A DNA stretch of 64,000 nucleotides from Massilia frigida (GTDB lineage Bacteria; Pseudomonadota; Gammaproteobacteria; Burkholderiales; Burkholderiaceae_D), in contig NZ_WHJG01000012.1 of assembly GCF_011682175.1 (NCBI RefSeq), positions 62,001 through 126,000 of the forward strand, in the 5' to 3' direction. A program made the translations under genes and the position numbers. The notes beneath the pieces are model-generated. The model was not told the origin of the DNA, did not search any database, and saw nothing but the letters and a program-made list of their open reading frames with translations. Each line of letters opens with the position of its first letter. Positions within the stretch are counted from its first letter, which is position 1. Shown here one piece after another: positions 10,174-27,276 of this stretch.

Positions 10174-11331
10174 TCAAAGTCTGGCCAGGCGCTCCAGCGC
10201 CAGGCGCAAGGTTTCGTCTTTCTTGGCGAAGCAAAAACGCACAATGCCGGACTCCCGTCCCTGGCTGTAAAACGCGGACACGGGGATGGCGGCGACCTTG
10301 ATTTCGGTGGTCAGCCATTGTGCAAAATCCGACTCTAGTATAGGCGAAATCGCCTCATACTTGACGCACTGAAAATAAGTTCCGTCGGCTGGCAACAACG
10401 TGAAGCGCGAGCCTTTCAGGCCGTCGCGGAACAGGTCGCGCTTGCGCTGGTAAAACGCCGGCAGGTCGCGGTAGGGCGCCGGATCGGCCATGTAGGTGGC
10501 CAGGCCGTGCTGCATTGGCGTGTTGACGCTGAAGACATTGTATTGGTGGACTTTGCGGAACTCGGCCATCAGGCTGGCGGGTGCGGCGACGTAGCCGATT
10601 TTCCAGCCGGTGACGTGATAGGTCTTGCCGAAGCTCGATACGACGAAGCTGCGCTCTGCCAGTTCCGGATAGCGGCATACCGACTCGTGGCGCACGCCGT
10701 CGTAGACCATGTGTTCGTAGACTTCGTCGGACAGGATCAGGATGTCGCTGCCGCGCACGATGCCGCCCAGGGCGTGCAGGTCGGGAGCGCGCAGGATCGC
10801 GCCGGTCGGGTTGTGCGGGGTGTTGATGACGATCAGGCGGGTGCGCGGGGTGACGGCTGCGGCGACCTGGTCCCACGGGACCGTGTAGCCTTGTTCGCCG
10901 AGTTCCATCGCGACCGGCACCGGGACGCCGCCAGCCAGGGTGATGGCGGGCAGGTAGCTGTCGTAGGCCGGTTCGATGACGATCACTTCATCGCCCGGGT
11001 GTACGCAGCACAGGATGGCGGTGGTCAGGGCCTGGGTGGCGCCGGCGGTGACGGTGATTTCGCTGGCGGGGTTGTATTGCGCGCCGTAGAGGGCGGCGAT
11101 CTTGGCGGCGATGGCGTCGCGTAATGCGGGTACGCCGGTCATCATCGGATACTGGTTGTGGCCGGCGCGCATGGCGGCGTCGACGTGGTCGAGCAGGGCC
11201 GGTTCGCAGGGGAAATCGGGAAAGCCCTGGCCCAGGTTGACCGCGCCGTGCTCGCTGGCCAGCGCCGACATCAGCGAAAAGACAGTGTAGCCGACGGCGG
11301 GCAGGCGGGTTTGCAGGACGGGAGTGGACAT
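10174..11331 (-). CDS. PLP-dependent methionine-type aminotransferase (YbdL-like)
   Basis: 385 residues, fold-type I aminotransferase. Visible marks are NLGQGFPDFPCEP near the N terminus, NTPHNPTGAI around residue 170, LSDEVYEHMVYDG, and the PLP lysine in SSFGKTYHVTGWKIGY (about 235). These features and the length match the YbdL/kynurenine aminotransferase branch, which prefers methionine and aromatic amino acids. It is the first gene of a two-gene operon with the HD-GYP protein. The exact substrate is inferred. Confidence 0.85.
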   Translation of the reverse strand: MSTPVLQTRLPAVGYTVFSLMSALASEHGAVNLGQGFPDFPCEPALLDHVDAAMRAGHNQYPMMTGVPALRDAIAAKIAALYGAQYNPASEITVTAGATQALTTAILCCVHPGDEVIVIEPAYDSYLPAITLAGGVPVPVAMELGEQGYTVPWDQVAAAVTPRTRLIVINTPHNPTGAILRAPDLHALGGIVRGSDILILSDEVYEHMVYDGVRHESVCRYPELAERSFVVSSFGKTYHVTGWKIGYVAAPASLMAEFRKVHQYNVFSVNTPMQHGLATYMADPAPYRDLPAFYQRKRDLFRDGLKGSRFTLLPADGTYFQCVKYEAISPILESDFAQWLTTEIKVAAIPVSAFYSQGRESGIVRFCFAKKDETLRLALERLARL

Positions 11332-11881: not shown

Positions 11882-12481
11882 TCAGGTGAACGGATGTGCG
11901 ACGGGGCGACCCGGTGCTGCAGGTTCGGCGCCGGTCTGTCTCGGCTGGCGCGGAATGGCGCCGCCGGCCGGACCGTCGATGCAGGCGTGCTCCACATACG
12001 CCGCCAGCGCGGCAACCGTCGGGCTTTCAAAAACCACGCGCAGGGCAAACGAGATTGGCCATTCGCGGCGGATCAGCGTGGCCAGGCGCGTGGCGGCAAG
12101 CGAATGCCCGCCGAGATCGGCGAAGAAATCCTGATCGATACTGTCCGGGCGCGCGCCCAGCACTTGCGCGAACAGCGCGGCGATCGCCTGCTCGACCGGC
12201 GTTTGCGGGACACGCAAGGGCCGCGCGGCCGACACCGGCTGGTCGGGCAGCGGCAGCGCGCCCCGGTCCAGCTTGCCGGCGGCGTTGAGCGGCAGGGCGG
12301 CGAGCGCGCAGATCCGATCCGGGATCATGTAATGCGGCAGCGATTCCCGCAGCCAGCCGCGCAGCAGTTCGGGATCGCATTCCATGCCGCTGGCGGGTAC
12401 GACGAACGCGACCAGCCGCTCATCGCACGCGGGCAGGCGCGACAGCCACAACGCGCGCAGCTTTTCGTGCGCCGGGCTCAT
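11882..12481 (-). CDS. NRPS fragment: A-domain C-terminal subdomain + carrier (T) domain
   Basis: 199 residues. It opens in the middle of an adenylation domain: DERLVAFVVPA, then the A9 motif LPHYMIPD and A10 NAAGKLDRGAL. A complete carrier domain follows (DQDFFADLGGHSLAATRLA, with the phosphopantetheine Ser in GGHS at about residue 145). A short Pro/Ala/Arg-rich tail closes it; there is no thioesterase or reductase. The ATG overlaps the stop of the preceding NRPS gene (ATGA), so the two are translationally coupled and should assemble into one adenylating unit. The invariant A10 lysine (GKLDR) is thus on a different polypeptide from the rest of the active site. Confidence 0.85.
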   Translation of the reverse strand: MSPAHEKLRALWLSRLPACDERLVAFVVPASGMECDPELLRGWLRESLPHYMIPDRICALAALPLNAAGKLDRGALPLPDQPVSAARPLRVPQTPVEQAIAALFAQVLGARPDSIDQDFFADLGGHSLAATRLATLIRREWPISFALRVVFESPTVAALAAYVEHACIDGPAGGAIPRQPRQTGAEPAAPGRPVAHPFT

Positions 12482-15400
12482 TTCACCGCCTTCACGATCG
12501 CCATCGAATCGGCCCACCAGTACTGGCAGTCGGCAGGCGGGCGCAGGCCCCGCACCAGCCCGACCGAAAACGAGGAGAAGTGTTCCAGCAGCAGCCGCTG
12601 GTGGCGCCGCGACAGCGAGTCGATCTCGTTGGTGTAGTAGGTGAACACGCCGCCTGGCCGCAACATGCGCTGGGCGGCGGGGAAGAACGATGCCGCGAAC
12701 GTCGGTGATGCGGCGACCTCGGCGCTGTACTCGTCCTCGGACGTCGGGTAGGTGTCGAACAGCACGCCGTCAAAGGACCTGGGCTCGAAGGCCCAGTCCT
12801 GCCAGCGGGTGGGCACGACCGTGACGGCGGCGTCCGGGCGCTGCGCGCGCCAGCGGCCGAGTCGTGCCAGGACGTCCGGATGGCACTCGACGATTGTGTG
12901 GGAGCGCACCCCGTATTGCTGCACCAGCGTGGCCGAGATGCCCATCCCGAAACCGATCTCGGCGACGTCGCCGCCGGACCCGGCCGCCGCTCCGGCCAGC
13001 GCCCGCATCAGGGGCCGCTCCCAGTCCTGCATCACCTGCTGGCCGTCGATCAGCAGCTCGCGCTCCGACCATGCGGCCGCGCTGGCCACCCAGCTCTCGC
13101 CCATCTCGGGCCGGGCCGACCCGGCGACGCACCGGCGGGCGATGGCGTCAATCGCCGTCAGATCGGCGACGGCTTCGTCGAGCGTGCGCTGCAGCAGCCA
13201 ATTGCGCTGCGCCGGCTGCGGCGCCGGGGCGAAGCCGGGCTGCAGGAAGTTCAGGTAGAGAGCGAACTGGGGGGTGTTGCGCCACATGGTCTGGCTCCGG
13301 ATCTGGTCTTGGTCGGTGTCGAAGCGATACAGGAATTGCGCTCCGGACGGGGTGAGCTGCTCCAGCCGCCACTGCAGCAGTGCGGCGTGCGCGTGTGGAA
13401 TCGAGGGCAAGCGCATCAAGGTGGCCGCCGCGGCGCGCACGGTGGGGTGGCGCGCCAGCGCCGTTTCGATTTCCCCGGGCTCGATGCGATAGCCGCGCAG
13501 CTTTACCTGCTGGTCCGTCCGGCCGAGGTAGTCGAGCTGGCCGTCGGCGCGGTAGCGCGCGCGGTCGCCGGTGGCGTACAGGCGGCCCGGCCCGAACGGA
13601 TTGGGAATGAAGCGGCGTGCGGTCAGCGCCGCGTCGTTCAGATAGCCGCGCGCCAGTCCCGCCCCGCCCAGATGCAATTCTCCAGGCAGGCCCGGCGGCA
13701 CGAGTTGCATGGCGCCGTCCAGCACATACGCGGTGTTGCCGGCGATCGGACGGCCGATGGGCGGCGCCGCCAGCTGCGTCGCGTCGCGCGCCAGATGCGC
13801 GGCGGTGGCGGTAATCGTCGCCTCGGTCGGACCATAGGCGTTGATGAGCTGGACCGAGGGCAGCGCCTGCGCCAGCCGCGCGGCCAATGCCGCGGGCAGC
13901 GCTTCGCCGCCGACGAGGATGCGGCGCAAGGTGGTGCAGCCGGCAAAGCCCTCGTGATCGAGCAGCACGGCCAGCAGCGAAGGGAAGAGATCGAGCAGCG
14001 TCACGCCGCGGCTGCGGATAATGCGGACCAGTTCGTCGACATCGCGCCCATGGTCGCCGGCCAGGACGACTTCGGCGCCCGCGGCCAGGCCGCCCAGCAG
14101 TTCCGACAGCGCGGCATCGAAACTGAAGGAGTATTTTTGCAGCACCACATCGGCCGGGGTCAGATCCAGGGCCGTCTTGAGCCAGCGAACCTGGTTGGCG
14201 AGGGCCCCGTGTTCGATCAGCACGCCTTTCGGCACGCCGCTCGAACCGGAGGTATAGACTACCGCCGCCAGGCGCTGCGGCGGGATCGGCCGGGCGGGCA
14301 TCGCCGGCGTATCCGGCATGAGCTCCTGCCACCAGGACGCGTCGTCGAGCACCGCGACCGGGGCGGCATCGGCCAGGATCGCCGCCGTGCGCCGGGCGGG
14401 AAGCGCCGGGTCCAGGTAGACGAACGCCGCCTCCGCCCGCCATGCCGCCAGGATGGCGACGGCGGTGTCGAGTCCATCGGCCAGCCGGATGGCGACGACC
14501 CGCTCGGGACCGGCGCCGCGCGCGCGCATGAGCGTGGCAAGCCGTCCGCACCGGCGGTCGAGTTCGGCGTAGCTCAGGCTGGCGTGCGGGGCGGCCAGCG
14601 CGGTACGCTCGCCGAAGTTCTCGAACACCCAGCCGGCGCGCGGCGCTTCCGCCTGCCCGGCCCAGGCGCACAGCTGCGCCTGGTCGGCGGGGCTGGCCAG
14701 TTGCAGCGTGCCGATCGGCTGGTCGTGCGACGCGAGCACGGCCGCCAGCACGCGTTCCCAGTGATCAAGCAGGCGTGCGACGGTGGCGTCGTCGAACACG
14801 TCGAGATTGAATTCAAAGCGGCTCAGCAACCCTTCTCCGCTTTCGAACAGGTCGAGCGCCAGATCGACGTTGGTGGAGGTGCGCTGATAGCCGATCTCCT
14901 CGCGCACCGCGCTGGTCCGCGCTGCGCTGTGGCTGGACTTGAAGAACTGCACCGTGGCCCGGTACAGGGGATTGTGGCCCAGCGCGCGGCGCGGCTGCAG
15001 GTGCTGGACGAGCCTGGCGAAAGGCAGTTGTTGGCCGGAATAGGCCGCCACGCTCGCTTCGCGCGTGGCGGCCAGCACCTGCAGGAAGCTCTGTTCGGAC
15101 GTCAGCCGCACGCGCAGCAGGATGGTGTTGAGGAAGAAACCGATCAGGTCCTCGACTTGCGCCGGGGCGCGGTTGGCCACCGGCGTGCCGAGCACGAGAT
15201 CGGTCTGGCCGGTGTAGCGATGCAGCAGGGTGGCAAAGGCCGCCAGCAGCACCTGGAACACGGTGGCCCCCTCGCGGCGCGCCAACGCGTACAGGCCATC
15301 GCGCAGGGGCGCGGCCAGCATGCGCGTGCGCACGTGCGCGCGGCGGGTGGGGATGGGTGGCGGCGCGCGATCGGTCGGCAGCGCCAGTTCCGGCGCGCCA

Positions 15401-16095
15401 TCGAGATAGCCGCGCCAGAACGCCAGCAGTTCGTCCAGATGAGTGCCGCTCAGCTGCGCGCGCTGCCAGCGGGCGAAGTCGGCGAACTGCACGCGCGGCG
15501 GCGCCAGCGGCACTTCCCGGCCCTGCGAGAGGGCCTCATAGGCGGCGTTCAGGTCGCGCATCAGGACGTCGATCGACCAGCCGTCGGCCACGATATGGTG
15601 GATCGTGAGCAGCTGTATCCACCCGCCGGCCATGCGCAGCAGGGCGGTGCGCAACAGGGGGCCGCGGGTCAGATCGAACGGTGCCTCGGCCTGCTCGCGC
15701 GCCAGGCGCGCCGCCTGCGCCTGTTGCGCCGGGACCGGCTCGCCCGACAGGTCGAACACCGGCATCGGCGCCACGTCCGCGTCCCCGATCACCTGGAACG
15801 GGACGCCGTCGCGTTCGATGAACCGGGTGCGCAGCGTTTCGTGGCGCTCTACCAGATAGCGCCACGCCGCGTCCCAGGCGGCGCGGTCCAGCTCCACCGG
15901 CAGCGCCAGCTGCATGTGCAGGTGATACGAGGTGTCGTCCGGCTCGAGCTGTTGCAGGAACCACAGGCGCTCCTGCTCGAACGAGGCTTGTTCCTCGCGC
16001 AGGCCGGCGCGCGTGATCCGGTCCGGGCGGGCCAGCCTGTCGAGCAATTCGCGCCGTTCGGGGGACAGGCTGGCCAGGCGTTGCGCGAGGCTCAC
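12478..16095 (-). CDS. NRPS: condensation + adenylation (A1-A8) + GAMT-like methyltransferase
   Basis: 1205 residues; the GTG start overlaps the PKS stop (GTGA). The C domain has HHIVADGWS near residue 163. The A domain has A3 VYTSGSSGVPKG near 612 and A8 LRGYRIEPGEIE near 866. By-eye pocket residues 235-331 read D-A-S-D-L-G-A-I-T. Asp at 278 suggests a polar or basic side chain (Gln/Glu/Arg class), but no firm substrate. After A8, where methyltransferases usually interrupt A domains, lies a domain with GQQVMQDWERPLMRALA, SAM loop EIGFGMGISA (about 1045), FDGVLFDTYPTSEDEY and PPADCQYWW. These match guanidinoacetate N-methyltransferase closely rather than the usual NRPS N-MT. The protein stops right after it. 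Confidence 0.88.
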   Translation of the reverse strand: MSLAQRLASLSPERRELLDRLARPDRITRAGLREEQASFEQERLWFLQQLEPDDTSYHLHMQLALPVELDRAAWDAAWRYLVERHETLRTRFIERDGVPFQVIGDADVAPMPVFDLSGEPVPAQQAQAARLAREQAEAPFDLTRGPLLRTALLRMAGGWIQLLTIHHIVADGWSIDVLMRDLNAAYEALSQGREVPLAPPRVQFADFARWQRAQLSGTHLDELLAFWRGYLDGAPELALPTDRAPPPIPTRRAHVRTRMLAAPLRDGLYALARREGATVFQVLLAAFATLLHRYTGQTDLVLGTPVANRAPAQVEDLIGFFLNTILLRVRLTSEQSFLQVLAATREASVAAYSGQQLPFARLVQHLQPRRALGHNPLYRATVQFFKSSHSAARTSAVREEIGYQRTSTNVDLALDLFESGEGLLSRFEFNLDVFDDATVARLLDHWERVLAAVLASHDQPIGTLQLASPADQAQLCAWAGQAEAPRAGWVFENFGERTALAAPHASLSYAELDRRCGRLATLMRARGAGPERVVAIRLADGLDTAVAILAAWRAEAAFVYLDPALPARRTAAILADAAPVAVLDDASWWQELMPDTPAMPARPIPPQRLAAVVYTSGSSGVPKGVLIEHGALANQVRWLKTALDLTPADVVLQKYSFSFDAALSELLGGLAAGAEVVLAGDHGRDVDELVRIIRSRGVTLLDLFPSLLAVLLDHEGFAGCTTLRRILVGGEALPAALAARLAQALPSVQLINAYGPTEATITATAAHLARDATQLAAPPIGRPIAGNTAYVLDGAMQLVPPGLPGELHLGGAGLARGYLNDAALTARRFIPNPFGPGRLYATGDRARYRADGQLDYLGRTDQQVKLRGYRIEPGEIETALARHPTVRAAAATLMRLPSIPHAHAALLQWRLEQLTPSGAQFLYRFDTDQDQIRSQTMWRNTPQFALYLNFLQPGFAPAPQPAQRNWLLQRTLDEAVADLTAIDAIARRCVAGSARPEMGESWVASAAAWSERELLIDGQQVMQDWERPLMRALAGAAAGSGGDVAEIGFGMGISATLVQQYGVRSHTIVECHPDVLARLGRWRAQRPDAAVTVVPTRWQDWAFEPRSFDGVLFDTYPTSEDEYSAEVAASPTFAASFFPAAQRMLRPGGVFTYYTNEIDSLSRRHQRLLLEHFSSFSVGLVRGLRPPADCQYWWADSMAIVKAVK

Positions 16096-19000
16096 GCCGG
16101 CCCCCTTTCACCGAGCAGCGCGACCACTTCAGCATCCGGCATCGCTTCGATCCGGTCCAGCAGCCGCGCCAGTTCGGGGTCGGGCTGCACGTCCAGCGCG
16201 GCGGACAACTCGGCCACCGTGGGATGGTCGAACAGGATGCGTACCGGCAGGTCGCGCTGCAGCGCTTCGCGCAGGCGCGAGACGACCTGGATCGCCAGCA
16301 GCGAATGGCCGCCCAGCTCGAAGAAATTGTCGTCGGCCCCGACCGGGTCGATGCCCATCAAGTCGCGCCAGAGATCGGCGATCAGCGTCTGCAGGCCGGG
16401 GCTGGGCGCGGCGAAGCCAGTCGACATGCGGGGCCGCTCGTGCGACTCGGCGGCCGCGGGTCTGGACGGCGCCACCGCGCTCTGCGGTTGCAGCCAGCGT
16501 TGCAGGCGCGGACCGAGCGCGGACACCGAGACGATCAGCCGGTTGATGTCGGGTGTGGCCAGCACCCGTTCCAACACGTCGATGCCGTCGTCGGGGCGGA
16601 TCAGCGGCTCGCCGCGATCTGCGCCATGGGTGTCGAAGGTCCAGCCATCCCAGTTGATGCTGATCCAGCGCGTGGCGCCGCCGCCCTGGGCCGCGGCCGC
16701 ATCGAGCATGGCGTTCGCGGCCGCGTACGGGCCGAAGCCGATCCCGCCCAGCACCGCCGAGATGGACGACATCAGGCAGATGAACTCGGGTGGATCGTCC
16801 CGCAGCGCGTCGGCCAGCAGGCGGGCGGCGCGCGGCTTGGCCGCGAAATGCGCTTCGGAGACGTCGCGGCCGATGTGCGCGAAGCCGGGGAAATACGGCG
16901 CCCCCGTCAGCCCCGCGGCATGGAACACGCCGTGCAGCTTGCCGGCTTCGGCGCGCGCCTCGGCGACCATCCGCGCCACGTCGGCCGCCACGCCGCCGTC
17001 GCCGCTGCAGATCACGACCCTGGTGCCCATGGTTTCGATCATGCGCAGCCGGCCGATGCGCGGATCGGCGCTGTCGTCCCATTGTTCGCGCGGCGGCATG
17101 CCGCTGCGGCCCGACAGCACCACCGTGGCCGCGCCGCGGCGCGCCAGGAATTCGGCGATCAGCAGGCCGATCTTGCCGAGCCCGCCCGTGACGAGGTAGT
17201 TGCCCTCAAGCGCAGGCGCCAGTTCCGGCTGGGCCGGTGCCAGCGGGGCCGGCTCGAACGTCATCACCCAGCGCTGCGCGCCGCGGTAGGCGATCCAGGG
17301 CGCCGCTTGCGGCAGCGCCTCGGCCAGCAGGGCCGGGGCGTGCGCGCCGCCGAGCAGCGACAGCGCGGCCGCATCGAGGTCGATCACGCGGCAGCTGAGC
17401 TGCGGATATTCCTGCGGCGCGGTGACGGCCAGGCCGACGATGCCGGCCAGCTCGGGGTCGATTGCGCGCTCCTGCGGCGTCGCCGCGAACACCCGCCGGG
17501 TCACGAACAGCACGGTGGTGGGCGCGCTGCGGCGGCTCAGGCCATGCAGCAGCGCCAGTGCGCGATAGTAGAGGTCGGGGGGCGGCATATCCGGATCAAT
17601 GCCGTCCAGCGAGATGACGGTGCTTAGCGCCGGGTCCGGCGTGCCGAGGGCCGCGGCGCTGCCGACGCACTCGACCGTCTGGCCGAGATCGGCCAGCGTG
17701 TCGGCCAGGGCGGCCACCTGCTCGCCCGAGCCGCCGACGATGGCCCAGGCGCCGGCGTACTCGGCCGGCAGGGGCGCGGCGGGCGCCGTGCGCACCCAGC
17801 GCGGCTGGTACAACCAGTCTTCCAGCGCCTGCGGGGTTGCCGGGTCCGCCGGCAGGGCGGCGGGGGCGGGAGCGGCGCCGGGCGGCTCGATCCAGTAGCG
17901 CTGCCGTTCGAACGGGTAAGTCGGCAGATGGACGCGCCGGCGCCGTTCGGCGCCGTAGAACGCGCGCCAGTCCACCGCTGCGCCGGCCGTCCACAGGCGG
18001 CCCAGCGCGTTCAGGGCGACGGCATCGTCGTCCGCCGCGTCGTGGGAGTGGCGGCAGGACGACACGATGACGCGGCCGGGCGCGCTTGCCTCGTGCTGCC
18101 GCGCGAAGCCGGCCAGGGCTTGGCCGGGGCCCACCTCCAGCAGCGCGCAGCCGGTGTCGCGCAGCAGATGGCCCAGGCAGTCGCCGAAGCGGACCGTGCC
18201 GCGCAGGTGGCGTCCCCAGTATTCGGGGCTCTGTGCCTCGTGCGGGCCGATCCAGTTGCCGGTCAGGTTGGACAGATAGGCGATCTTGGGCGCATGCAGG
18301 CGCACGCGCCCCATCGCGTCGATCATCGGCTGGACGGCGCCATCGACCAGATGCGAGTGGAACGCGTGCGAAGTGCGCAGCGCGTGCACGGTGACGCCTT
18401 CGCCTTCGAGCTGCCGGCCGATGTCCGCGATGGCCGCTTCGGTGCCGGACAGGACGCACAGCGATGGCCCGTTGACCGCCGCGATATCGGCCGCGCCGGC
18501 GAAGCGCCCGCGCAGCGCCGCCTCGGGCAGCGCCACCGCCAGCATCGCCCCGGGCGCCATGGCGGCCAGGATCTGGCCGCGCCGGACGAGCAGGAGCAAG
18601 GCATCCTCCAGGCTGAGCACGCCGGCAAGGCATGCGGCCGTGTATTCGCCCACGCTGTGGCCGGCAAGGGCGGCCGGTTTGATTCCCCAGTGCATCCACA
18701 GGCGCGCCAGCGCGTAGCTGGCGACAAACATCGCCGCCTGCGTCACCTCGGTGCGGCGCAGCGCGTCGCCATGGCCATCGTCGTGCATCAGTGCGCGCAG
18801 GTCGATGCCTAGCGGGCCGCGCAGGATATCCGTGCAGTTATCGACGATGTCCCGGTACACGGGCTCGGCGCGGTACAGGCCGGCGCCCATGCCGGGATGC
18901 TGGGCGCCCTGGCCGGGAAACAGGAAGGCGACGCCCTCGCACTTGCCGTCGTGCGGGTCGGGCGCGGCGCGGCGCGGCGCGCCGGCGCGCCGCCGCAGGC

Positions 19001-20519
19001 CGGCGGCGACGGCGGGCGAGGCGGCCGGCACCACGACGGCGCGGCGGCATGGCATTTCGCTGCGGCCCAGGTGCAGGGTATGGGCCACGTCGGGCAGGGA
19101 CAGTTCGGGGTGGGCGTCGAGGTGGGCGGCCAGGCGCGCCGCGGCCGCGTCCAGCGCGCCGGGGGTACGGGCCGACAGGACCAGCAACTGCGCTGCGCGC
19201 GACGCGTCGTCGGGGGGCGGCTCGGGCGCTTCCTCGACAATCACGTGCGCATTGGTGCCGCCTATCCCGAAGGAACTGACCGCCGCGCGCCGCACGCCGC
19301 AATCGGGCTGCCAGTCGCGCAGCGCGGTGTTGACGAAAAATGGGCTGTTGTCCATGTCGAGCTTTGGGTTGGCGCGCGTGAAATGCAGGCTGGGCGGAAT
19401 CTGGCGGTGCTGCAGCGCCAGCACGCACTTGATCAGGCCGGCGACGCCGGCGGCCGAGTCCATGTGCCCGGTGTTGGACTTGACCGAGCCCAGCGCGCAA
19501 TAGCGGCGCCGCGAACTGCGCCGCCACGCCTGGCACAGCGCGGCGAACTCGATCGGGTCGCCCAGCGGGGTGGCGGTGCCGTGGGCTTCCATCATCGTGA
19601 TCGTTTCCGGCGCCACGCCGGACATGGCCAGCGCGGTGGCGATCGCGTTGGCCTGGCCGGCCACGCTGGGCGCCGTGTAGCCCACTTTGTCGGCGCCATC
19701 GTTGTTCAGGCCCCAGCCGCGGATCACAGCGCAGATGGGGTCGCCGTCGGCCAGCGCGTCGGCGAGGCGCTTGAGCACCACACAGCCGGCGCCGTTGGCG
19801 CCGACCGTCCCCATGGCGGCGGCATCGAAGGAGCGGCAGTGGCCGTCCGGCGAGGCGATGCCGCCTTCCTCGTAGAGGTAGCCGCGCACCATCGGCACGG
19901 CGAGCGTGACGCCGCCGGCCAGCGCGACATCGGACTGGTATTCGATCAGGCTCTGGCAAGCCAGGCCGACCGCCACGAGCGACGTCGAGCATGCGGTACC
20001 CACCGTTATCGCCGGGCCTTTCAGGTTGAGCTTGTACGCGACCCGGGTGGCCAGGTGGTCCTTGTCGTTGCCGATCAGGATCTGGAAGTCGGTGACCCGG
20101 CCGGCCAGCCCGGCATTGCCGTAGAGGTGGAAGGCATAGGTGCTCATGCTGGTGCCGGCGAACACGCCGACCGCGCCCGGATGGCGCTCCGCGACGCAGC
20201 CGGCGTCTTCCAGCGCGGCGGAGGCGCATTCAAGAAAGACGCGCTGCTGCGGATCGAGGATCTCGGCCTCGCGCGGATTGAAGCCGAAGAAGTCGGCATC
20301 GAACTGGTCGATGCCGTCGACGACGCCGTTGGCGCGCACATAGGCCGGATGGGCCAGCAATTCGGCCGGCACGCCGGCCTGCAGCAGTTCTTCGTCGCTG
20401 AAAAAGCTGATGCATTCGCGTCCCTGGCGCAGGTTGTCCCAGAACTCGGCCACGTCGGCGGCCTTGGGAAAACGGCCGGCCATGCCGATCACCGCCACGC
20501 ATTCGGATTGATCCGTCAT
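16092..20519 (-). CDS. Type I PKS module KS-AT-KR-ACP
   Basis: 1475 residues, start fixed by an ATGA overlap with the preceding NRPS gene. KS: VAVIGMAGRFP, active Cys in GTACSTSL (about 175), His in EAHGTAT and SNTGHM. AT: GHSVGEYTA (about 620) and HAFHS (about 717), the signature for malonyl-CoA. KR: LVTGGLGKIG (about 1105), with MSSISA and PYAAANA carrying the catalytic Ser and Tyr. ACP: NFFELGGHSLLAIQ (about 1400). There is no DH, ER or methyltransferase domain, so it should add one malonate unit and reduce the ketone to a beta-hydroxy group on the aminoacyl chain from the upstream module. Confidence 0.93.
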   Translation of the reverse strand: MTDQSECVAVIGMAGRFPKAADVAEFWDNLRQGRECISFFSDEELLQAGVPAELLAHPAYVRANGVVDGIDQFDADFFGFNPREAEILDPQQRVFLECASAALEDAGCVAERHPGAVGVFAGTSMSTYAFHLYGNAGLAGRVTDFQILIGNDKDHLATRVAYKLNLKGPAITVGTACSTSLVAVGLACQSLIEYQSDVALAGGVTLAVPMVRGYLYEEGGIASPDGHCRSFDAAAMGTVGANGAGCVVLKRLADALADGDPICAVIRGWGLNNDGADKVGYTAPSVAGQANAIATALAMSGVAPETITMMEAHGTATPLGDPIEFAALCQAWRRSSRRRYCALGSVKSNTGHMDSAAGVAGLIKCVLALQHRQIPPSLHFTRANPKLDMDNSPFFVNTALRDWQPDCGVRRAAVSSFGIGGTNAHVIVEEAPEPPPDDASRAAQLLVLSARTPGALDAAAARLAAHLDAHPELSLPDVAHTLHLGRSEMPCRRAVVVPAASPAVAAGLRRRAGAPRRAAPDPHDGKCEGVAFLFPGQGAQHPGMGAGLYRAEPVYRDIVDNCTDILRGPLGIDLRALMHDDGHGDALRRTEVTQAAMFVASYALARLWMHWGIKPAALAGHSVGEYTAACLAGVLSLEDALLLLVRRGQILAAMAPGAMLAVALPEAALRGRFAGAADIAAVNGPSLCVLSGTEAAIADIGRQLEGEGVTVHALRTSHAFHSHLVDGAVQPMIDAMGRVRLHAPKIAYLSNLTGNWIGPHEAQSPEYWGRHLRGTVRFGDCLGHLLRDTGCALLEVGPGQALAGFARQHEASAPGRVIVSSCRHSHDAADDDAVALNALGRLWTAGAAVDWRAFYGAERRRRVHLPTYPFERQRYWIEPPGAAPAPAALPADPATPQALEDWLYQPRWVRTAPAAPLPAEYAGAWAIVGGSGEQVAALADTLADLGQTVECVGSAAALGTPDPALSTVISLDGIDPDMPPPDLYYRALALLHGLSRRSAPTTVLFVTRRVFAATPQERAIDPELAGIVGLAVTAPQEYPQLSCRVIDLDAAALSLLGGAHAPALLAEALPQAAPWIAYRGAQRWVMTFEPAPLAPAQPELAPALEGNYLVTGGLGKIGLLIAEFLARRGAATVVLSGRSGMPPREQWDDSADPRIGRLRMIETMGTRVVICSGDGGVAADVARMVAEARAEAGKLHGVFHAAGLTGAPYFPGFAHIGRDVSEAHFAAKPRAARLLADALRDDPPEFICLMSSISAVLGGIGFGPYAAANAMLDAAAAQGGGATRWISINWDGWTFDTHGADRGEPLIRPDDGIDVLERVLATPDINRLIVSVSALGPRLQRWLQPQSAVAPSRPAAAESHERPRMSTGFAAPSPGLQTLIADLWRDLMGIDPVGADDNFFELGGHSLLAIQVVSRLREALQRDLPVRILFDHPTVAELSAALDVQPDPELARLLDRIEAMPDAEVVALLGERGPA

Positions 20520-23500
20520 GTGCTTCTCCTGTGCCGGCGCTCGGCCCGCGCGCTGCGCTGCTGCGCGATGCGCTGGTCGAGCAAGTCGATGGAATCGGGC
20601 ATGTCCGCCCCGCCGTGCTCCCCGGTTTGCTCCACGTGCCGCGCCAGCGCCGCCACGGTGGGAAAGCGGAACAGGTCGACCATCGACAGGGAGTGCCCCA
20701 GCAAGCCGGCCAAGCGGCTGTGAATCTGCTGCAGCAGCAGCGAATGGCCGCCCAGGTCGAAGAAATTGTCGTCCAGGCCGACCCGTTCGTGGGCCAGCAC
20801 TTCGCGCCAGACGGCGGCGATGAGGCGCTCGATCTCCGATTGCGGCTCGGCGAACGGGGCATGCGCGAGCCATTCGCCGCCTTCGTCGGGCGGCAGGGCC
20901 TTGCGGTCGATCTTGCCGCTGGGCGTCAAGGGGAAAGCGTCGAGCGGGATCAGCGTGGCGGGCACCATGTATTCTGGCAACTCCTGCTGGAGGAAACGGC
21001 GCAGCGCCTGGATGTCGTGCGCCCGGTCGAGCACGGCGTAGCCCAGCAGGCGCCGGTCCGCGCCGCCGCTGTCGCCGCTGGCGATGACGCAGGCATCGCG
21101 CACCAGCGGATGGCGCCGCATTACCGCCTCGATGTCGCCCAGCTCGATGCGAAAGCCGCGCAGTTTCACCTGGTGGTCGCGGCGGCCGATAAACTCGAGC
21201 GCGCCGTCGGCGCGGTAGCGCACCTGGTCGCCGGTCCGGTACAGGCGCTGGCCGGAATTGGGCGACGCGAACGGATTGGGGATGAAGCGCTGCGCGGTCA
21301 GCTCCGGGTCGCCCAGGTAGCCGCGGGCGACGCCGTCGCCGCCGATGTACAGCTCGCCGACGACGCCTGCCGGCGCCAGCTGCATTTCCTGGTCGAGTAC
21401 GTACAGCTCGGTGTTGGCGATGGCGCGCCCGATCGGCACGCGCGGTTCCAGGGCCGCGCCGCGCTCCATCCGGTGGCAGGCGGCGAAGGTGGTGGTTTCG
21501 GTGGGGCCGTACCCGTTGATGAGCACGCAGCCGGGCAACTCGTCGAGCACGCGCCGGCACAGCGCAGGCGAGAGCACGTCGCCGCCGGCGAGCAGTTGCC
21601 GGACCCGCCACAGCGAACCGAGCTGGGCCTCGACCATTTGGTGGAACAGGCTTGCCGTCAGCCACAGGATGGTGACGCCGGCGCGCTCGATGCAGGCGCC
21701 CAGCTCTTCGAGCGACGGCAGCCCCGGCGGCGCGATTTCCAGCCGCGCGCCGTTCAGCAGCGCGCCCCAGATCTCGAAGGTCGACGCGTCGAACTGCAGC
21801 GGCGCGAACTGCAGCATCACGTCCCCTTGCGTAATGGTGCAATAGTTGCTGTTGCGGACCAGCCGCACCACATTGCGGTGGCTTACGCACACGCCCTTGG
21901 GCTGGCCCGTCGAACCGGACGTAAACAGCACGTAGGCCAGCGCGTCGGCATCGGCGCCGCTGTCCGGCGCGCTGTCGTCGGCCGGCAGGTCGATGGCGTC
22001 GAGCAGGGCCGGCCGGTGGCGGCCGACGGCGGCCGCCGCGCCGCTGCGCGAGACGATCAGGCGCGGCGACGCCTGCCCGATCATCGCGTCCAGCCGCGCC
22101 GGCGGGTAGGCCGGGTCGAGCGGGAGGTTGGCGGCTCCGGCCTCGACGATCGCCACCAGCGTCGCCACCATGTCGATCCCGCGTGGCAGGCAGATGCCGA
22201 CGACATCGCCGCGCTGCACGCCTTGCTGGCGCAGCCAGCGCGCCAGCCGGGCCGTGCGCCTGGCCAGTTCGCCGTAGGTGAGGGTGCCGTCCTCGCCATT
22301 GAGCGCGACCGCGTCGGGCGCGGCCAGCGCCTGCTGGCGGAACAGCTGGCCGAGCGTGGCATCGCGCGGATAGACCGTGCCGGTGCTGTTGCAGTCGGTC
22401 AGCAGCAGTGCGCGCTCGCGCGGCGACAGCAGCGGCAGCCGGGTGATCGGCACATCGGGGCTGGAGGCAATGCTTTGCAACAGCGTTTGCCAGTGGCCTA
22501 TCAACCTGGCGATCGTGTCGTCCGCGAACAGGTCGGTGCTGTACTCGACAATAGCGGAGATGCCATTCTCGTCCTCGCCCAGGTACAGGGTCAGGTCGAA
22601 CTTGGCGTTCCCGTACGACACCCCGGAGCACGCCGCCGGGCCGGGCTGGTACGACGGCGCTTGCGCCGGGCCGCCGCGCTGCGCCGCGCCGTTCTGCAAC
22701 ACGAACATCACTTGGAACAGGGGATTGCGGCTCGGATCGCGCTGGGGATGCAAATTTTCCACCAGCTTTTCGAACGGCAAGTCCTGGTTGGCGTAGGCGC
22801 CCAGCGCCGTTTCGCGCACTTGGCGCAAGTGCTCGCGGAAGCTCGGCCGCCCCGCCAGGCGGGCGCGCATCACCAGCGTGTTGACGAAAAAGCCGATCAG
22901 CGGCTCCACCTCGGGCCGGTTGCGGTTGGCGATCGGCGTGCCGACCACGATATCGTCCTGGCCGCAATAGCGCATCATCAGCACCTGGAACGCGGCCAGC
23001 AGGGCCATGAACAGGGTTGCCCCTTCGCGCTGGGCGATGCGGCGCAGGCCGTCGACGACGGGCAGGGCGGTCGTTGCGCACTGGAAGGCGCCGCGGTAGC
23101 TGGGCGTGGGCGGGCGCGCGAAGTCGGTGGGCAGCTGCAAGTCCTGGTAGCCGTCGAGCTGCTCGCGCCAGTAGCCGAGCTGGGCGCCGAGTGCCTCCAG
23201 GGTCTGGCTCTGGCGCTGCCACGCGGCGAAGTCGGCGTACTGGATCGGCAGCTCGGGAAGCGGCGACGCTTGGCCCTGCACGAAGGCCTCGTACAGCGCG
23301 GCGATCTCGCCCGTGATGATGTCCATCGACCAGCCGTCCGTGACGATGTGGTGCATCGTGAGCACGAACAGCGACGCGTCGTCGGCCAGGCGGATCAGCG
23401 TAGGGCGCAGCAGCGGACCGCGGGTCAGGTCGAACGGGCGCTGCGCGTCCTCCATGGCGGTGCGGCGCGCCGCTTCCTCGCGCGCGCCGGACGGGGTGTC

Positions 23501-23770
23501 GCGCAGGTCGACGCTGGCGACCGGCACGGTCAGCGCTCCCAGCACTTGCTGGACCGGTTCGCCGTCGACGGCGTGAAAGACCGTGCGCAGGATTTCATGG
23601 CGCCGCACCAGCTCGCTGATAACCCTGCACCACACCGCTTCGTCGATCGCGCATGGCAAGGGCATATCGATCTGCAGGTTGTAGAAGGGGCTGGCGGGCG
23701 CGAGCAGGTGCAGGAACCACAGGCGCGTCTGCGAGTACGACAGGGGGAAGATGTTGGCGGCGGTTTCCAT
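20516..23770 (-). CDS. NRPS module C-A-T, valine-like adenylation code
   Basis: 1084 residues beginning METAANIFPLSYSQTRLWF. C domain: MHHIVTDGWSM (about 138). A domain: A3 LFTSGSTGQPKG (about 613), QFDASTFEIW, VTILWLTASLF, LLAGGDV and LINGYGPTETTTF. By eye the specificity residues are D-A-F-W-L-G-G-T-F plus the A10 Lys, one conservative change from the classic valine code. T domain: NFFDLGGHSLLLQQ (about 1005). The presence of a C domain in the apparent first module suggests the chain is started by an acyl group, or by something made elsewhere. It begins two bases after the thioesterase stop. Confidence 0.92.
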   Translation of the reverse strand: METAANIFPLSYSQTRLWFLHLLAPASPFYNLQIDMPLPCAIDEAVWCRVISELVRRHEILRTVFHAVDGEPVQQVLGALTVPVASVDLRDTPSGAREEAARRTAMEDAQRPFDLTRGPLLRPTLIRLADDASLFVLTMHHIVTDGWSMDIITGEIAALYEAFVQGQASPLPELPIQYADFAAWQRQSQTLEALGAQLGYWREQLDGYQDLQLPTDFARPPTPSYRGAFQCATTALPVVDGLRRIAQREGATLFMALLAAFQVLMMRYCGQDDIVVGTPIANRNRPEVEPLIGFFVNTLVMRARLAGRPSFREHLRQVRETALGAYANQDLPFEKLVENLHPQRDPSRNPLFQVMFVLQNGAAQRGGPAQAPSYQPGPAACSGVSYGNAKFDLTLYLGEDENGISAIVEYSTDLFADDTIARLIGHWQTLLQSIASSPDVPITRLPLLSPRERALLLTDCNSTGTVYPRDATLGQLFRQQALAAPDAVALNGEDGTLTYGELARRTARLARWLRQQGVQRGDVVGICLPRGIDMVATLVAIVEAGAANLPLDPAYPPARLDAMIGQASPRLIVSRSGAAAAVGRHRPALLDAIDLPADDSAPDSGADADALAYVLFTSGSTGQPKGVCVSHRNVVRLVRNSNYCTITQGDVMLQFAPLQFDASTFEIWGALLNGARLEIAPPGLPSLEELGACIERAGVTILWLTASLFHQMVEAQLGSLWRVRQLLAGGDVLSPALCRRVLDELPGCVLINGYGPTETTTFAACHRMERGAALEPRVPIGRAIANTELYVLDQEMQLAPAGVVGELYIGGDGVARGYLGDPELTAQRFIPNPFASPNSGQRLYRTGDQVRYRADGALEFIGRRDHQVKLRGFRIELGDIEAVMRRHPLVRDACVIASGDSGGADRRLLGYAVLDRAHDIQALRRFLQQELPEYMVPATLIPLDAFPLTPSGKIDRKALPPDEGGEWLAHAPFAEPQSEIERLIAAVWREVLAHERVGLDDNFFDLGGHSLLLQQIHSRLAGLLGHSLSMVDLFRFPTVAALARHVEQTGEHGGADMPDSIDLLDQRIAQQRSARAERRHRRST

Positions 23771-23772
23771 GC

Positions 23773-24492
23773 TCAAGCCATCGCGTCGTCGGGATGCAGG
23801 GTGGACAGGCCGAGATCGGTGCAGATCGCGTGCTGCACCAGGACTGGTGTCTTGTAGAGGTAAAAATGACCGCCGGGAAAGAGTCGGAGCCGGAACTCGT
23901 CCGCCGTGTGCTGGCGCCAGGCGCGCAGTTCGGGCCGGCTGATGCGCTGGTCGGTGATGCCGCCGAGGCAGGTGATGGGGCAGGACAGCGGCGGCGCGTG
24001 CCGGTAGCGGTAGTGCTCGGCGATCTCGAGGTCGGAACGCATGACCGGCAGCAGCGTGTCCATCAGATCGGGCTGCGCCAGCACCTCGGGCGGCGTGCCG
24101 TCCAGCCGCAGCAGCTCCGCCTTGAGCAGATGCCCTGGCAGCGCATGTAGGGGCGGGCTGCGGCCGTTCAGGTGGGGCGCGCGAAAGGCCGAGACGAACA
24201 GGTGCTCCGGCTGGCGCAGTCCGGCGCGGCGCATCATGCGCGCCAGTTCGAAGGCCACCAGCGCGCCCATGCTGTGCCCCAGCATGGCGTAGGGCTGGTC
24301 CAGCAGGGGTTCCATGCCGTGCGACAAGTCCCGCAGCAGCGCCTCCATACGGCGCGGCATCGGATCCTTGTAGCGCGCTTCGCGGCCGGGCAGCGCGACC
24401 GGCATGATTTGCAGACTGTCCGGCCCGGCCGCCAGCCAGGAACGGAATTGCGAAGGGCCCGCCCCCGCATGGGGAAAGCAAAGAAGCCGCAT
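23773..24492 (-). CDS. Type II thioesterase (GrsT-like)
   Basis: 239 residues, alpha/beta hydrolase. It opens MRLLCFPHAGAGPSQFRSW, a typical type II thioesterase N terminus; nucleophile Ser in MLGHSMGALVAFE (about 84); catalytic His in FPGGHFYLY near residue 210. These stand-alone enzymes remove stalled or wrongly primed acyl groups from carrier domains. It is transcribed just ahead of the NRPS module and after the S8 protease (30-base gap). It is the only thioesterase in the cluster, so it might also serve in release, though that is not the usual role. Confidence 0.93.
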   Translation of the reverse strand: MRLLCFPHAGAGPSQFRSWLAAGPDSLQIMPVALPGREARYKDPMPRRMEALLRDLSHGMEPLLDQPYAMLGHSMGALVAFELARMMRRAGLRQPEHLFVSAFRAPHLNGRSPPLHALPGHLLKAELLRLDGTPPEVLAQPDLMDTLLPVMRSDLEIAEHYRYRHAPPLSCPITCLGGITDQRISRPELRAWRQHTADEFRLRLFPGGHFYLYKTPVLVQHAICTDLGLSTLHPDDAMA

Positions 24493-24522: not shown

Positions 24523-26040
24523 TTAGCCCAGTTGGGCGATCATGGCGAGGATTTCTTGCTGCTTGCCTTCCAGGTCGGCGATCAGCGCCGCGACGCGCTG
24601 CTGCTGCGCGCGGCAGGGGGCGGCGGGCGGGTCGGCCTGGGGGGGCGCGGGCCGGCCCGCCTGCGGCACGCCGGCGCCCTGGATCGGGTCCGGCAGCGCC
24701 AGGTCGATCGCGCTCGCCGCCAGCAGTTGCCTGAGCTGTTCACACTGGCGCGCGTCGCCGGTGCGGATTTCAGGGTGCGCGGACAGGGCCGCGGCCGCCA
24801 GTCCCGAGACGAAGGCGCAGGCCATCGATGTGCCATCCCAGGCCGCGTATCCGCCGGGCACGCTCGATATGATCGCCACACCCGGCGCGATGAAGGCCGT
24901 CTGCGGCCCGCTGTTGGAGAAATTGGGCACGAACAGGCTGGTCGCGTCATTGCGCAGTTCGGCGATGCGCAGCGCATGGGCGCTGCCGGCGGGGAAGGCG
25001 TGCATCGAGCCGAATGCCGTCACCGCCAGCACGCCGTCGCTGGCCGCCGGGTGGCAGAGCTGGTGGCCGCCGTCATTGCCGGCGGCGGCCACCAAGGTGA
25101 TGCCCGCCTGGGCCGCCTCGGCCAGCTTGAGCGCGAGCAGGGCGCTGGGGCTGTCGATGGCCAGGCTCATATTGACGATATCCATGCCGTTGTCGATGCA
25201 CCATTGCAGGCCTTCGAGCAGGTCGCTCAGCCGGCCGCCGGGAAACGCCTTGACGGCATACAGGGCGACGTCGGGAGCGACACCGCATACGCCATTGACC
25301 GCATTGCGGCCGCCGATCACGCCCGCGCAGTGGGTGCCGTGGCCCTTGTCATCGCTGCGGAAGTCGTCCGCGCCGGCCCCGTCCAGCGCGTTCATGCCGC
25401 CCGCGACCACCAAGTCCGGGTGGTCGGCAATGCCGCTGTCGAGCACCGCGACCTTGACGCCGGCGCCTCCGGACACCTCGCTGGTCATGCCCAGCCACTG
25501 GCGTTCCCACGCAGCGGCGCCGCGCGCAATCAGCGGGGTCAGGGTGACCTCGGTCGTCCGGTCCGCCGCCGGCGCCGGGATCACCCGCGCCCAGTAGTTG
25601 GCGGCGGGCGACACGATCACGTGTTCGATCACCTGATCGAGCACGCGCACGCCGGCCGTGCCGTCCTGCCCGGTGCGGCCCCGGTAAGTGGCGCGCTCGC
25701 CTTTCACGAACAGCGTCGCGCCCGCGACCGGCGCGCCCGTTTGCGCGTCGCGCACGGCAAAGAGGTATTCCTGGCCACGGTCCGGCCCTACCTCGAAACC
25801 GAGCGCCGGCATCGGCGCCAGCAGCGTGAGCGGCTGGTCTTCCTCGATCAGCATCTCGCCATGGTCGCGTGCGAGGTTATCCGCTTCGGCGGCTGTCATT
25901 TCCACCACCTGCGTGCCGCTCGTGCCGGCGCGTCCCAATTGCTGTTCCGGCAGCCCTGCGACCACGTCCTGCAAGCTCAGGCCCGAGCCCATCCGGACGT
26001 GCCGGGGCACCGCGATGATGTACCGCTTCGTGATCGACAT
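24523..26040 (-). CDS. Subtilisin-like S8 serine protease without signal peptide
   Basis: 505 residues with the full S8 triad: Asp in VAVLDSGIADHPD (about 198), His in GHGTHCAGVIGG (about 232) and Ser in DGTSMACAFVSG (about 400). The first 75 residues resemble an I9-type propeptide (VVEMTAAEADNLARDHG). A beta-sandwich-like segment follows (TGAPVAGATLFVKG), then the catalytic domain and a Gln/Ala/Pro-rich C-terminal tail ending in a predicted coiled coil. There is no signal peptide, so it acts in the cytosol or uses another export route. It lies between the repeat protein (48-base gap, good AGGGAGA site) and the thioesterase. Confidence 0.9.
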   Translation of the reverse strand: MSITKRYIIAVPRHVRMGSGLSLQDVVAGLPEQQLGRAGTSGTQVVEMTAAEADNLARDHGEMLIEEDQPLTLLAPMPALGFEVGPDRGQEYLFAVRDAQTGAPVAGATLFVKGERATYRGRTGQDGTAGVRVLDQVIEHVIVSPAANYWARVIPAPAADRTTEVTLTPLIARGAAAWERQWLGMTSEVSGGAGVKVAVLDSGIADHPDLVVAGGMNALDGAGADDFRSDDKGHGTHCAGVIGGRNAVNGVCGVAPDVALYAVKAFPGGRLSDLLEGLQWCIDNGMDIVNMSLAIDSPSALLALKLAEAAQAGITLVAAAGNDGGHQLCHPAASDGVLAVTAFGSMHAFPAGSAHALRIAELRNDATSLFVPNFSNSGPQTAFIAPGVAIISSVPGGYAAWDGTSMACAFVSGLAAAALSAHPEIRTGDARQCEQLRQLLAASAIDLALPDPIQGAGVPQAGRPAPPQADPPAAPCRAQQQRVAALIADLEGKQQEILAMIAQLG

Positions 26041-26088: not shown

Positions 26089-26862
26089 TCAGCGTACACC
26101 GAGTGCCTGCGCCTGTTGGTGCTGAGCGGTATGCAGTTGCTGCAGGTAAGCCAGCATTTCCGGCGGCATGGCCGCCCACTGTTGCTGCGCAAGCTCGGCC
26201 TCGTGTCGCGCCGCGCCCTCCCGGTAGGCAGCTTCTTCCAGCATGGCGAGCTCGACTTCCTGCAGCGCGGCCGCATAGGTCGGCAGGTTCATGCCGGCGG
26301 CCGCCGCTTCCTGCTCGGCCAGCGCCTGATACTGCTGTTTTTGGTACTGCGCCAGCCCGGCCAGCTGCTGCTGTTCGTGCTGCTGAGCGAGCTGGGCCAT
26401 TTGCTCTTGCTCCTGGTGCCGGGCCAGCTCGGTCAGGTGGTATTCATGCGTCTGCAGCGCGGCCTGGTAGGTGGGCAGGTCCATGCCGGCAGCAGCGGCT
26501 TCGTCCGTCGCAGCCCGGTGCTGTTCGTGCGTCTGCAGCGCGGCCAGGTAAGTGGGCAGGTCCATGCCGGCAGCAGCGGCTTCGTCCGTCGCAGCTTGGT
26601 GCTGTTCGTGGTCCTGCAGCGCGGCCAGGTAAGTGGGCAGGTCCATGCCCGCGGCAGCGGCTTCGTCCGTCGCAGCCTGGTGCTGTTCGTGGTTCTGCAG
26701 CACGGCCAGGTAAGTGGGCAGGTCCATGCCCGCGGCAGCGGCTTCGTCCGTCGCAAGCAGATGCATGTGTCGCGCTTCGGCGGTCTCCGCTTCGAATTGC
26801 GCATGTTCCAGCGCGGCCAACTGCTCAAGCAGCATCGCCTTCCGCAAACTGTATTCGTTCAT
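26089..26862 (-). CDS. Tandem-repeat protein, short form from strong internal start
   Basis: 257 residues from MNEYSLRKAMLLEQLAALE; the ATG at 26862 has a near-ideal AGGAGGT six bases upstream. After a 36-residue leader come four almost identical 27-residue units (ATDEAAAAGMDLPTYLAALQ plus about seven His/Gln/Glu residues). A Gln-rich helical stretch follows, then a fifth diverged unit (EQEAAAAGMNLPTYAAALQ) and a Gln/Ala tail. It has no signal peptide and no Cys in this form. It precedes the S8 protease gene directly, so it could be that protease's substrate (a multi-copy precursor) or a structural or inhibitor partner. Both ideas are inference. Confidence 0.75.
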   Translation of the reverse strand: MNEYSLRKAMLLEQLAALEHAQFEAETAEARHMHLLATDEAAAAGMDLPTYLAVLQNHEQHQAATDEAAAAGMDLPTYLAALQDHEQHQAATDEAAAAGMDLPTYLAALQTHEQHRAATDEAAAAGMDLPTYQAALQTHEYHLTELARHQEQEQMAQLAQQHEQQQLAGLAQYQKQQYQALAEQEAAAAGMNLPTYAAALQEVELAMLEEAAYREGAARHEAELAQQQWAAMPPEMLAYLQQLHTAQHQQAQALGVR

Positions 26863-27276
26863 GGCTTTACCTCCTACGCGGTGGTTTTTTGCCGCGTACG
26901 GACGGACTGGGCGGCAGGTCGGATGGGTGTTCGGAGTCGGATGGGTCGGGTCCCGCCGTGCATCATCGGCGGGTCGAAGCATGGTCAGCAGCTGGTCGGA
27001 TACGTTGACGAGATGATCGAGGGTGGCGCGCAGCTCACTGCGCAGCTGCTCTTTTTCAGCCTCGGGAAGATCGGCCATCTGCGACAGGGCGTGCTGGCAG
27101 GCATCAATGGAGCGCCGCAGTTCGCGGCTTTCCAGGGCAGCGCCGTCAATCACCGCCGGGGATGGCCGGGCAGGTGCGTTGGCGCCCGCAGCTACGGCGG
27201 ACAGATGGTCCGGGAACTCGCTGTAGCCCCGCAGGAACGCTTGGGAAAGGCGGGCTTGAAAAGCGTTAGCTTGCAT
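26089..27276 (-). CDS. Tandem-repeat protein, long form; first gene of the biosynthetic unit
   Basis: One frame of 395 codons from the ATG at 27276 (GGAGG ten bases upstream) to 26089. The N-terminal 138 residues (MQANAFQARLSQAFLRGYSE...) are helix-prone and contain a single Cys near residue 61. They end in a Pro/Thr/His-rich stretch (DPTHPTPNTHPTCRPVRP), after which the frame continues into the short form at 26862. The remainder consists of Ala/Gln/His/Glu-rich repeats. I do not recognise a family. Either the two starts give long and short products, or they are two neighbouring proteins that happen to share a frame with no stop between them. Confidence 0.6.
   Translation of the reverse strand: MQANAFQARLSQAFLRGYSEFPDHLSAVAAGANAPARPSPAVIDGAALESRELRRSIDACQHALSQMADLPEAEKEQLRSELRATLDHLVNVSDQLLTMLRPADDARRDPTHPTPNTHPTCRPVRPYAAKNHRVGGKAMNEYSLRKAMLLEQLAALEHAQFEAETAEARHMHLLATDEAAAAGMDLPTYLAVLQNHEQHQAATDEAAAAGMDLPTYLAALQDHEQHQAATDEAAAAGMDLPTYLAALQTHEQHRAATDEAAAAGMDLPTYQAALQTHEYHLTELARHQEQEQMAQLAQQHEQQQLAGLAQYQKQQYQALAEQEAAAAGMNLPTYAAALQEVELAMLEEAAYREGAARHEAELAQQQWAAMPPEMLAYLQQLHTAQHQQAQALGVR
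26431..26754 (-). repeat. Four 81-bp tandem repeats
   Basis: Units at 26674-26754, 26593-26673, 26512-26592 and 26431-26511, each 81 bases (27 codons) and nearly identical at DNA level; a diverged fifth copy of the core lies at about 26260-26316. They are in frame with no spacers, so this is a coding repeat array rather than a CRISPR. The high identity suggests recent duplication or gene conversion. Confidence 0.93.
26869..26875 (-). promoter_or_regulatory. Strong internal ribosome-binding site
   Basis: AGGAGGT on the - strand, six bases before the ATG at 26862 and inside the frame of the longer protein. It supports independent translation of the short repeat protein. Confidence 0.75.

Follow-up and report, generated by a model that had tools for sequence, protein, structure and literature searches.

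A putative arginine-activating NRPS adenylation domain divided between two proteins by a guanidinoacetate methyltransferase-like domain

Does an NRPS gene that stops behind a methyltransferase (MT), with the end of its adenylation (A) domain encoded on the following reading frame, describe a broken enzyme or a working one, and in the latter case, which group of which substrate would be methylated? This question is raised by a locus in a stretch of 64,000 nucleotides from Massilia frigida (contig NZ_WHJG01000012.1, positions 62,001 to 126,000), in the following termed the window, whose minus-strand genes between 26040 and 11882 constitute a hybrid NRPS/PKS assembly line (Table 1). In the reading that we favor, with a probability of about 0.6, the locus encodes an arginine module with an A domain assembled from two proteins, combined with methylation of the guanidine group by a member of the guanidinoacetate N-methyltransferase (GAMT) family.

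Table 1. Features of the assembly line and of its divided module in the window.
Feature	Position	Strand	Remark
S8 peptidase, subtilisin-like	24523..26040	-	conserved with cluster
Type II (stand-alone) thioesterase	23773..24492	-	conserved with cluster
NRPS module C-A-PCP	20516..23770	-	code DAFWLGGTF(K), K assumed
PKS module KS-AT-KR-ACP	16092..20519	-	same line
NRPS protein 1: C, A1-A8, linker, GAMT-type MT to natural C terminus	12478..16095	-	
A8 motif	13465..13524	-	last adenylation motif of protein 1
GAMT-type MT domain, residues 964-1205	12481..13206	-	GAMT sequence homology
ATGA overlap	12478..12481	-	stop of protein 1 and start of protein 2
Protein 2: A9, A10, peptidyl carrier domain	11882..12481	-	without thioesterase

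The distribution of motifs across the two proteins defines where the domain is divided. In protein 1, a C motif is followed by A3, A5, A7, A8 and finally the MT, while protein 2 carries A9 (LPHYMIP), A10 (NAAGKLDR, with its lysine at 12274-12272 on the minus strand) and the carrier motif GGHSL. A previous sequence-only reading had placed A9, the A10 lysine and the carrier on a separate gene coupled by ATGA, which is confirmed by the overlap at 12481-12478, and the motifs it had quoted for the MT were all recovered on the minus strand (GQQVMQDWE at residues 1018-1026, IVECH at 1068-1072, FDGVLFDTYP at 1108-1117 and PPADCQYWW at 1186-1194). Its description of a GAMT-like domain that extends to its natural C terminus before the stop also stands, with the protein ending 11 residues past the YWW motif. 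The site of MT insertion, between A8 and A9, is the same as in interrupted A domains. In A domains, the A8, A9 and A10 regions belong to the mobile subdomain, and the two lobes swing through large conformational changes. Read from this established structure, the break falls within the mobile subdomain, whose A8 part resides on protein 1 and whose A9/A10 part resides on protein 2, and both proteins are likely to need each other for adenylation. Ten aligned second proteins start with a LSxxxRxLLxLRL-like helix (alignment columns 1-24), which is shorter in the three that are closest to the window, and a similar stretch follows A8 on the first proteins; the two may possibly constitute a docking pair.

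Contrary to the view of the sequence-only reading that no named system shows this arrangement, a counterpart exists in the corallorazine enzymes, where, in the accessible sections of the report, an nMT follows A8 of Crz1 before the stop and A9/A10 are encoded on crz2 (PMC11342130). The layout of the window, with A1-A8, MT and stop on one ORF and A9, A10 and carrier on the next, corresponds to this split. The same sections describe no turnover of glycine by Crz1.2 alone and almost quantitative turnover by Crz1.2 combined with Crz2, and they present the split A domain as unique in 2024 (PMC11342130). The working principle of a divided A domain whose activity is restored by mixing proteins is thus already known. 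The two systems differ in that Crz converts glycine into N-methylglycine, employs what its authors describe as a conventionally embedded nMT and ends, on Crz2, in a reductase, with the MTs of both systems being compared by description. New with respect to Crz are the GAMT-type MT (as far as its counterpart is described), the predicted link to arginine, the three-ORF and convergent forms and the range of phyla. In the interrupted A domains of TioS, KtzH and McyA, the MT likewise occupies the A8/A9 site, although the insertion is described, in the sections available, as lying within one A domain (PMC11355689), whereas the MT of the window forms the end of a protein.

The MT defines a family of 29 loci, of which 21 are linked to a split NRPS A domain and eight are free-standing (L017, L018, L019, L020/L064, L021, L022, L024 and L027). 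Twenty-five loci originate from a single genome scan with exact peptide patterns, which diverged or fused versions could escape, and G009, G259 (L060), L056 (= L047) and the window were added via whole-genome searches. The relationship to GAMT, for which the sequence-only reading had suggested a check against GAMT profiles, is far beyond chance. The GAMT structure 1xcj was matched at E=3.5e-30 in a single-sequence search, and the family profile detects GAMT structures in the PDB at 5e-39 to 5e-36 (best 5.1e-39), with the next best match at 0.027 and no NRPS among its 18 matches (E up to 10). In Pfam, the MT of the window matches Methyltransf_25 below the cutoff of this model, in NCBIfam it finds no match at E 0.01, and the members of the family match only general methyltransferase models and others of unrelated name in either collection. 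Among interrupted A domains, the comparison by sequence covered the TioS-type NRPS chain 5wmm, which we take to be TioS; within the best 60 of 153 matches of the A-MT stretch of the window, this chain shows one matching stretch, which is confined to the A core and does not include the MT.

The residues that interact with the substrate in GAMT are reflected in the family. Glu45 of GAMT is an acid of the guanidine site, with its equivalent in the window at 13020-13018, and Asp134 has its equivalent at 12756-12754 (both on the minus strand). In the part of the report available, Asp134 is described to abstract a proton from the substrate nitrogen (PMC12842229). Of 28 aligned members, 27 retain both acids, among them the window (L060 is outside the alignment), as do four plain GAMT-like outgroups, which were weak matches set aside from the family (L048/L057, L049, L054 and L055). 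The exception is L056, where they are replaced by Q and H. In a tree of 28 rows, constructed without five near copies, support of 99/98 sets the family apart from GAMT; a single clade unites the three-ORF members but neither the fused nor the free-standing ones, and since the base of the family is not resolved, one fusion is indistinguishable from several. While homologous to GAMT, the family MT differs in its fusion to or vicinity of NRPS, an added N-terminal region and an altered stretch following the TY(Y/C) strand, and in light of the NRPS fusion and the separate clade, guanidinoacetate is an unlikely substrate for the MT of the window.

The code of the A domain points to a different guanidine compound. 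Read from motif anchors and with K517 assumed, it is DASDLGAIT, and the same anchors yield recognizable codes elsewhere (DAFWLGGTF, DLTKVGHVG and DILQLGLVW). According to the accessible part of a survey, most of 37 arginine domains share a tendency to Asp235, Ala/Val236, Glu239, Asp278, Ile/Val/Leu299, Gly301, Ala322, Val/Ile330, Thr/Asp331 and Lys517 (PMC12283262), a tendency with which the window agrees at nine of ten positions (counting the assumed K517), with position 239 alone being different. In a post hoc test on a set that excludes near copies (such as G009) and L050-L053, scores of at least 8 are reached by 14 of 20 MT-linked A domains (L058 of L013 and L059 of L007 included), with three of the remainder at 6 and one each at 7, 4 and 3, compared to one at 8, three at 7 and 18 at 6 or below for 22 other sequences, among them two acyl-CoA-ligase-like proteins and a row with gaps (Mann-Whitney p 1.2e-5 with relatives counted, 0.009 with one sequence per lineage, 10 vs 22). 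The 8 belongs to the A domain adjacent to the free-standing MT of L064, and the next three places among these others are taken by the first A domain of each actinobacterial three-ORF cluster. Moderate fits are found in L016, L061 and L063 (6/10) and in L059 (7), the lowest in L056 (4) and the degenerate L062 (3), and position 278 is N instead of D in all nine Nitrospirota. L056, which combines a non-arginine code (DSALIAEVW) with the loss of both guanidine-site acids, represents one natural control. A literature query with the code letters gave no match.

Another indication comes from the surroundings of the free-standing relatives. In L027, the MT is flanked by an AMP ligase, a CN (carbon-nitrogen) hydrolase, a VinK-type acyltransferase and a flavin amine oxidase, which, in our matching of domains to steps, are the types expected for a pathway to a 4-guanidinobutyryl starter. 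In the sections available on azalomycin, such a starter is derived from arginine, in a cluster that itself contains no methyltransferase gene (PMC5082578), and the link of the MT family to guanidinobutyrate is therefore provided by L027 alone. Elsewhere, a complete A domain adjoins the MT in L064, the neighbors of L018 are a type I PKS, a phosphopantetheinyl transferase and a DegT enzyme, L021 shows an ORF layout similar to L018, L019 a ligase-like match, and L017 adjoins transposon genes. No guanidine genes were detected among the few neighbors scanned at L017, L018, L022 (three neighbors) and L024 (one). Taken together, the fit of the code, the retained acids of GAMT and the gene neighborhood of L027 make arginine the likely substrate that would be loaded and methylated at its guanidine group.

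The same properties bear on the possibility that an equally divided enzyme instead methylates the backbone alpha-nitrogen, as in TioS and Crz1/Crz2. The insertions between A8 and A9 covered in the available part of a review are mostly backbone N-methylases, for which this is the usual place (PMC11355689), the product of Crz, in the sections accessible, is N-methylglycine (PMC11342130), and the arginine fit of several MT-linked A domains is only moderate. Conversely, the GAMT-type sequence of the MT, the lack of NRPS among the 18 PDB profile matches, the restriction of the 5wmm match to the A core (best 60 of 153), the nearly invariant guanidine-site acids and the location of one free-standing member (L027) among genes of guanidino-starter type all argue against backbone methylation, which we consider unlikely.

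For the favored arginine module with guanidine methylation, we envision that protein 1 would supply the C domain, the catalytic core up to A8 and the MT, and protein 2 the remainder of the mobile subdomain, with A9 and the A10 lysine, and the carrier. ATGA-coupled translation would yield both at once, and their association would create a functional adenylation site, where arginine would be adenylated prior to its loading on the carrier of protein 2. The MT would methylate the guanidine group, at a site and time that we infer, most likely on N-delta, the nitrogen next to the carbon chain, like GAMT and BlsL. This scheme combines what is observed for the family (homologies, the split, its conservation, the acid residues, the signature fit and one gene neighborhood) with the demonstration by others that a domain divided in this way can function in trans (Crz1.2 + Crz2). 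BlsL, from the blasticidin S pathway, is described in the accessible sections as having low similarity to GAMT and PRMT and as methylating the delta N of beta-arginine (PMC5572114). By this description, it resembles the family as a natural-product methylase of low GAMT similarity, whereas it is not part of an NRPS and acts on a nucleoside antibiotic precursor. A GAMT-type NRPS domain was not found in the searched open-licence PMC literature, which does not comprise the Lundy 2020 catalogue of interrupted A domains, and the available sections of PMC9259500 and PMC10491745 held nothing relevant.

The likely requirement for two proteins gains weight from the conservation of the split. The sequence-only reading had asked whether it is shared by orthologous clusters, which is the case for all 21 linked loci. 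In each of them, A9-A10 reside on a different ORF than the MT, which never reads into A9 (0/21), and both parts of the A domain are not found together with the MT in one polypeptide (A-M-A, 0/21). The split is thus a recurring conserved design and not a mutation. The MT is fused to A1-A8 in 18 of the 21 members and located on the second of three ORFs (A1-A8, MT, A9-carrier), whose candidate start and stop codons overlap, in three actinobacteria (L023/L061, L025/L063 and L026/L062). The second half is found downstream on the same strand in 20 of 21 cases, with the degenerate half of L062 recognized by eye, while in the planctomycete L056 a second half consisting of A9-A10-PCP-TE is located on the opposite strand in convergent orientation, with 148 nt between the stops, in a metagenome assembly that may contain an inversion artefact. 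The C terminus of the MT follows the last YWW-like motif by 11 residues in 23 of 29 members, by 12 in three and by 14, 15 and 20 in the rest. By record titles, the linked loci are distributed over seven phyla, namely Pseudomonadota, Nitrospirota, Actinomycetota and four represented by metagenome-assembled records only, where contamination is possible: Thermodesulfobacteriota (L007), Cyanobacteriota (L013), Planctomycetota (L014, L056) and Acidobacteriota (L016). In L062 (13377-19998, Streptomyces sp. JHD 1), A3 and the A10 lysine are lost, as judged by eye, and the MT is intact.

The A domain could be dead in its divided form, with the carrier of protein 2 being loaded by another A domain and only MT and carrier being of relevance, as would suit the plainly decayed halves of L062. 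However, the joint decay of these halves argues for joint function elsewhere, the core motifs looked for in the window and the A10 lysine are all intact, and dN/dS values of 0.22 for the first and 0.24-0.27 for the second gene, relative to L060 and L003, reflect purifying selection on both, which renders a dead domain improbable. Still less credible is a programmed frameshift or readthrough that would generate one long protein and no true split. An ATGA overlap, as found in the window and three close relatives (G009, L003 and L060), might accommodate such an event, but no slippery heptamer was recognized by eye, and the junction changes to TGA-N-ATG in nine Nitrospirota, to gaps of 14 nt (L007) and 157 nt (L013) before the first likely ATG and to a second half on the other strand in L056. 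Finally, a sequencing or assembly error or a local mutation, which according to the sequence-only reading an unbroken orthologue or a frameshift would reveal, is refuted by orthologues, with the same stop and the same ATGA in the genomes of three close relatives (G009, L003 and L060, at 98%, 86% and 86% identity over the MT) and MT-ending stops in 17 more distant loci.

The divided arginine module is part of a line whose six genes co-occur in all three other genomes with the split-module cluster (G009, G259 with locus L060, and G269, the genome of L003). An aminotransferase at 10174-11331 is separated from the line by about 0.5 kb and probably does not belong to it, since this distance grows to about 9 kb for its relative in G009 and no relative was detected in the retrieved stretches of G259 and G269. 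In the window, the last carrier is not followed by a thioesterase. From the domain order and the codes alone, including that of the upstream NRPS module, which we take to be valine-like, we would guess at a product in which a valine-type unit, acylated or free, is followed by a reduced ketide (statine-like) and an N-methylguanidino-arginine. The S8 peptidase, kept beside the NRPS-PKS genes in 3/3 other cluster genomes, has a mycosin as best NCBIfam match, below cutoff, and it could be related to self-resistance or to the target if the product were a statine-type inhibitor. Upstream of the cluster, a repeat-rich ORF at 26089-27336 (TDEAAAAGMDLPTYLAALQ repeats), partly conserved in the three relatives, has no family match in Pfam or NCBIfam. 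Motif scans located MbtH-like ORFs in two of 12 loci (L007:1887 and L063:11714) and, in the window, a single match at 4570 (minus), which by eye is not MbtH-like.

The MT family is rare and patchy. With the own or center genome counted, it was detected in 2/60 relatives (E 1e-8), 3/245 genomes of the family sample (E 1e-20), 3/299 Pseudomonadota, two of them plain GAMT-like (E 1e-30), 2/339 Cyanobacteriota, one plain GAMT-like (E 1e-20), 5/118 Nitrospirota (E 1e-40), 1/376 Actinomycetota, which is the center itself (E 1e-40), and 1/179 Planctomycetota, again the center, with two copies (E 1e-40). For the larger samples, where part of the first-look candidates were scored, these counts are lower bounds, and the Nitrospirota matches L050-L053, which may repeat earlier species, were left out as separate loci. 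Plasmid records contain no relative at E 1e-10. We see even odds that the loci from seven phyla represent an undescribed NRPS class, defined by an arginine A domain made of two or three proteins and a guanidine methylase that never reads into A9-A10, which arose by gene landing and subsequent fusion. The A8/A9 loop may have received a free-standing methylase gene complete with start and stop, giving rise to the three-ORF state, and the MT may later have fused to the upstream half, with the need for a free MT C terminus maintaining the split. In the metagenome-assembled genome of L056 (7492-8571), a further A domain carries, between A8 and A9 of a single polypeptide, a PP-loop (SGGKDS) domain similar to WbuX, an N-acetyl sugar amidotransferase (TIGR03573, below cutoff at E=1.8e-32). 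Inserts of ATP-pyrophosphatase type would be uncommon among interrupting domains.

Collectively, our analysis illustrates that a split A-domain design is found repeatedly among distant bacteria, to which three loci add another break located between A8 and the MT, and it thereby identifies natural, selected break points in the A domain that are of use in NRPS engineering. From the GAMT-type domain, N-methylguanidino-arginine residues are predicted, which annotation could miss since Pfam and NCBIfam assign only general methyltransferase models and models of unrelated name to this family.
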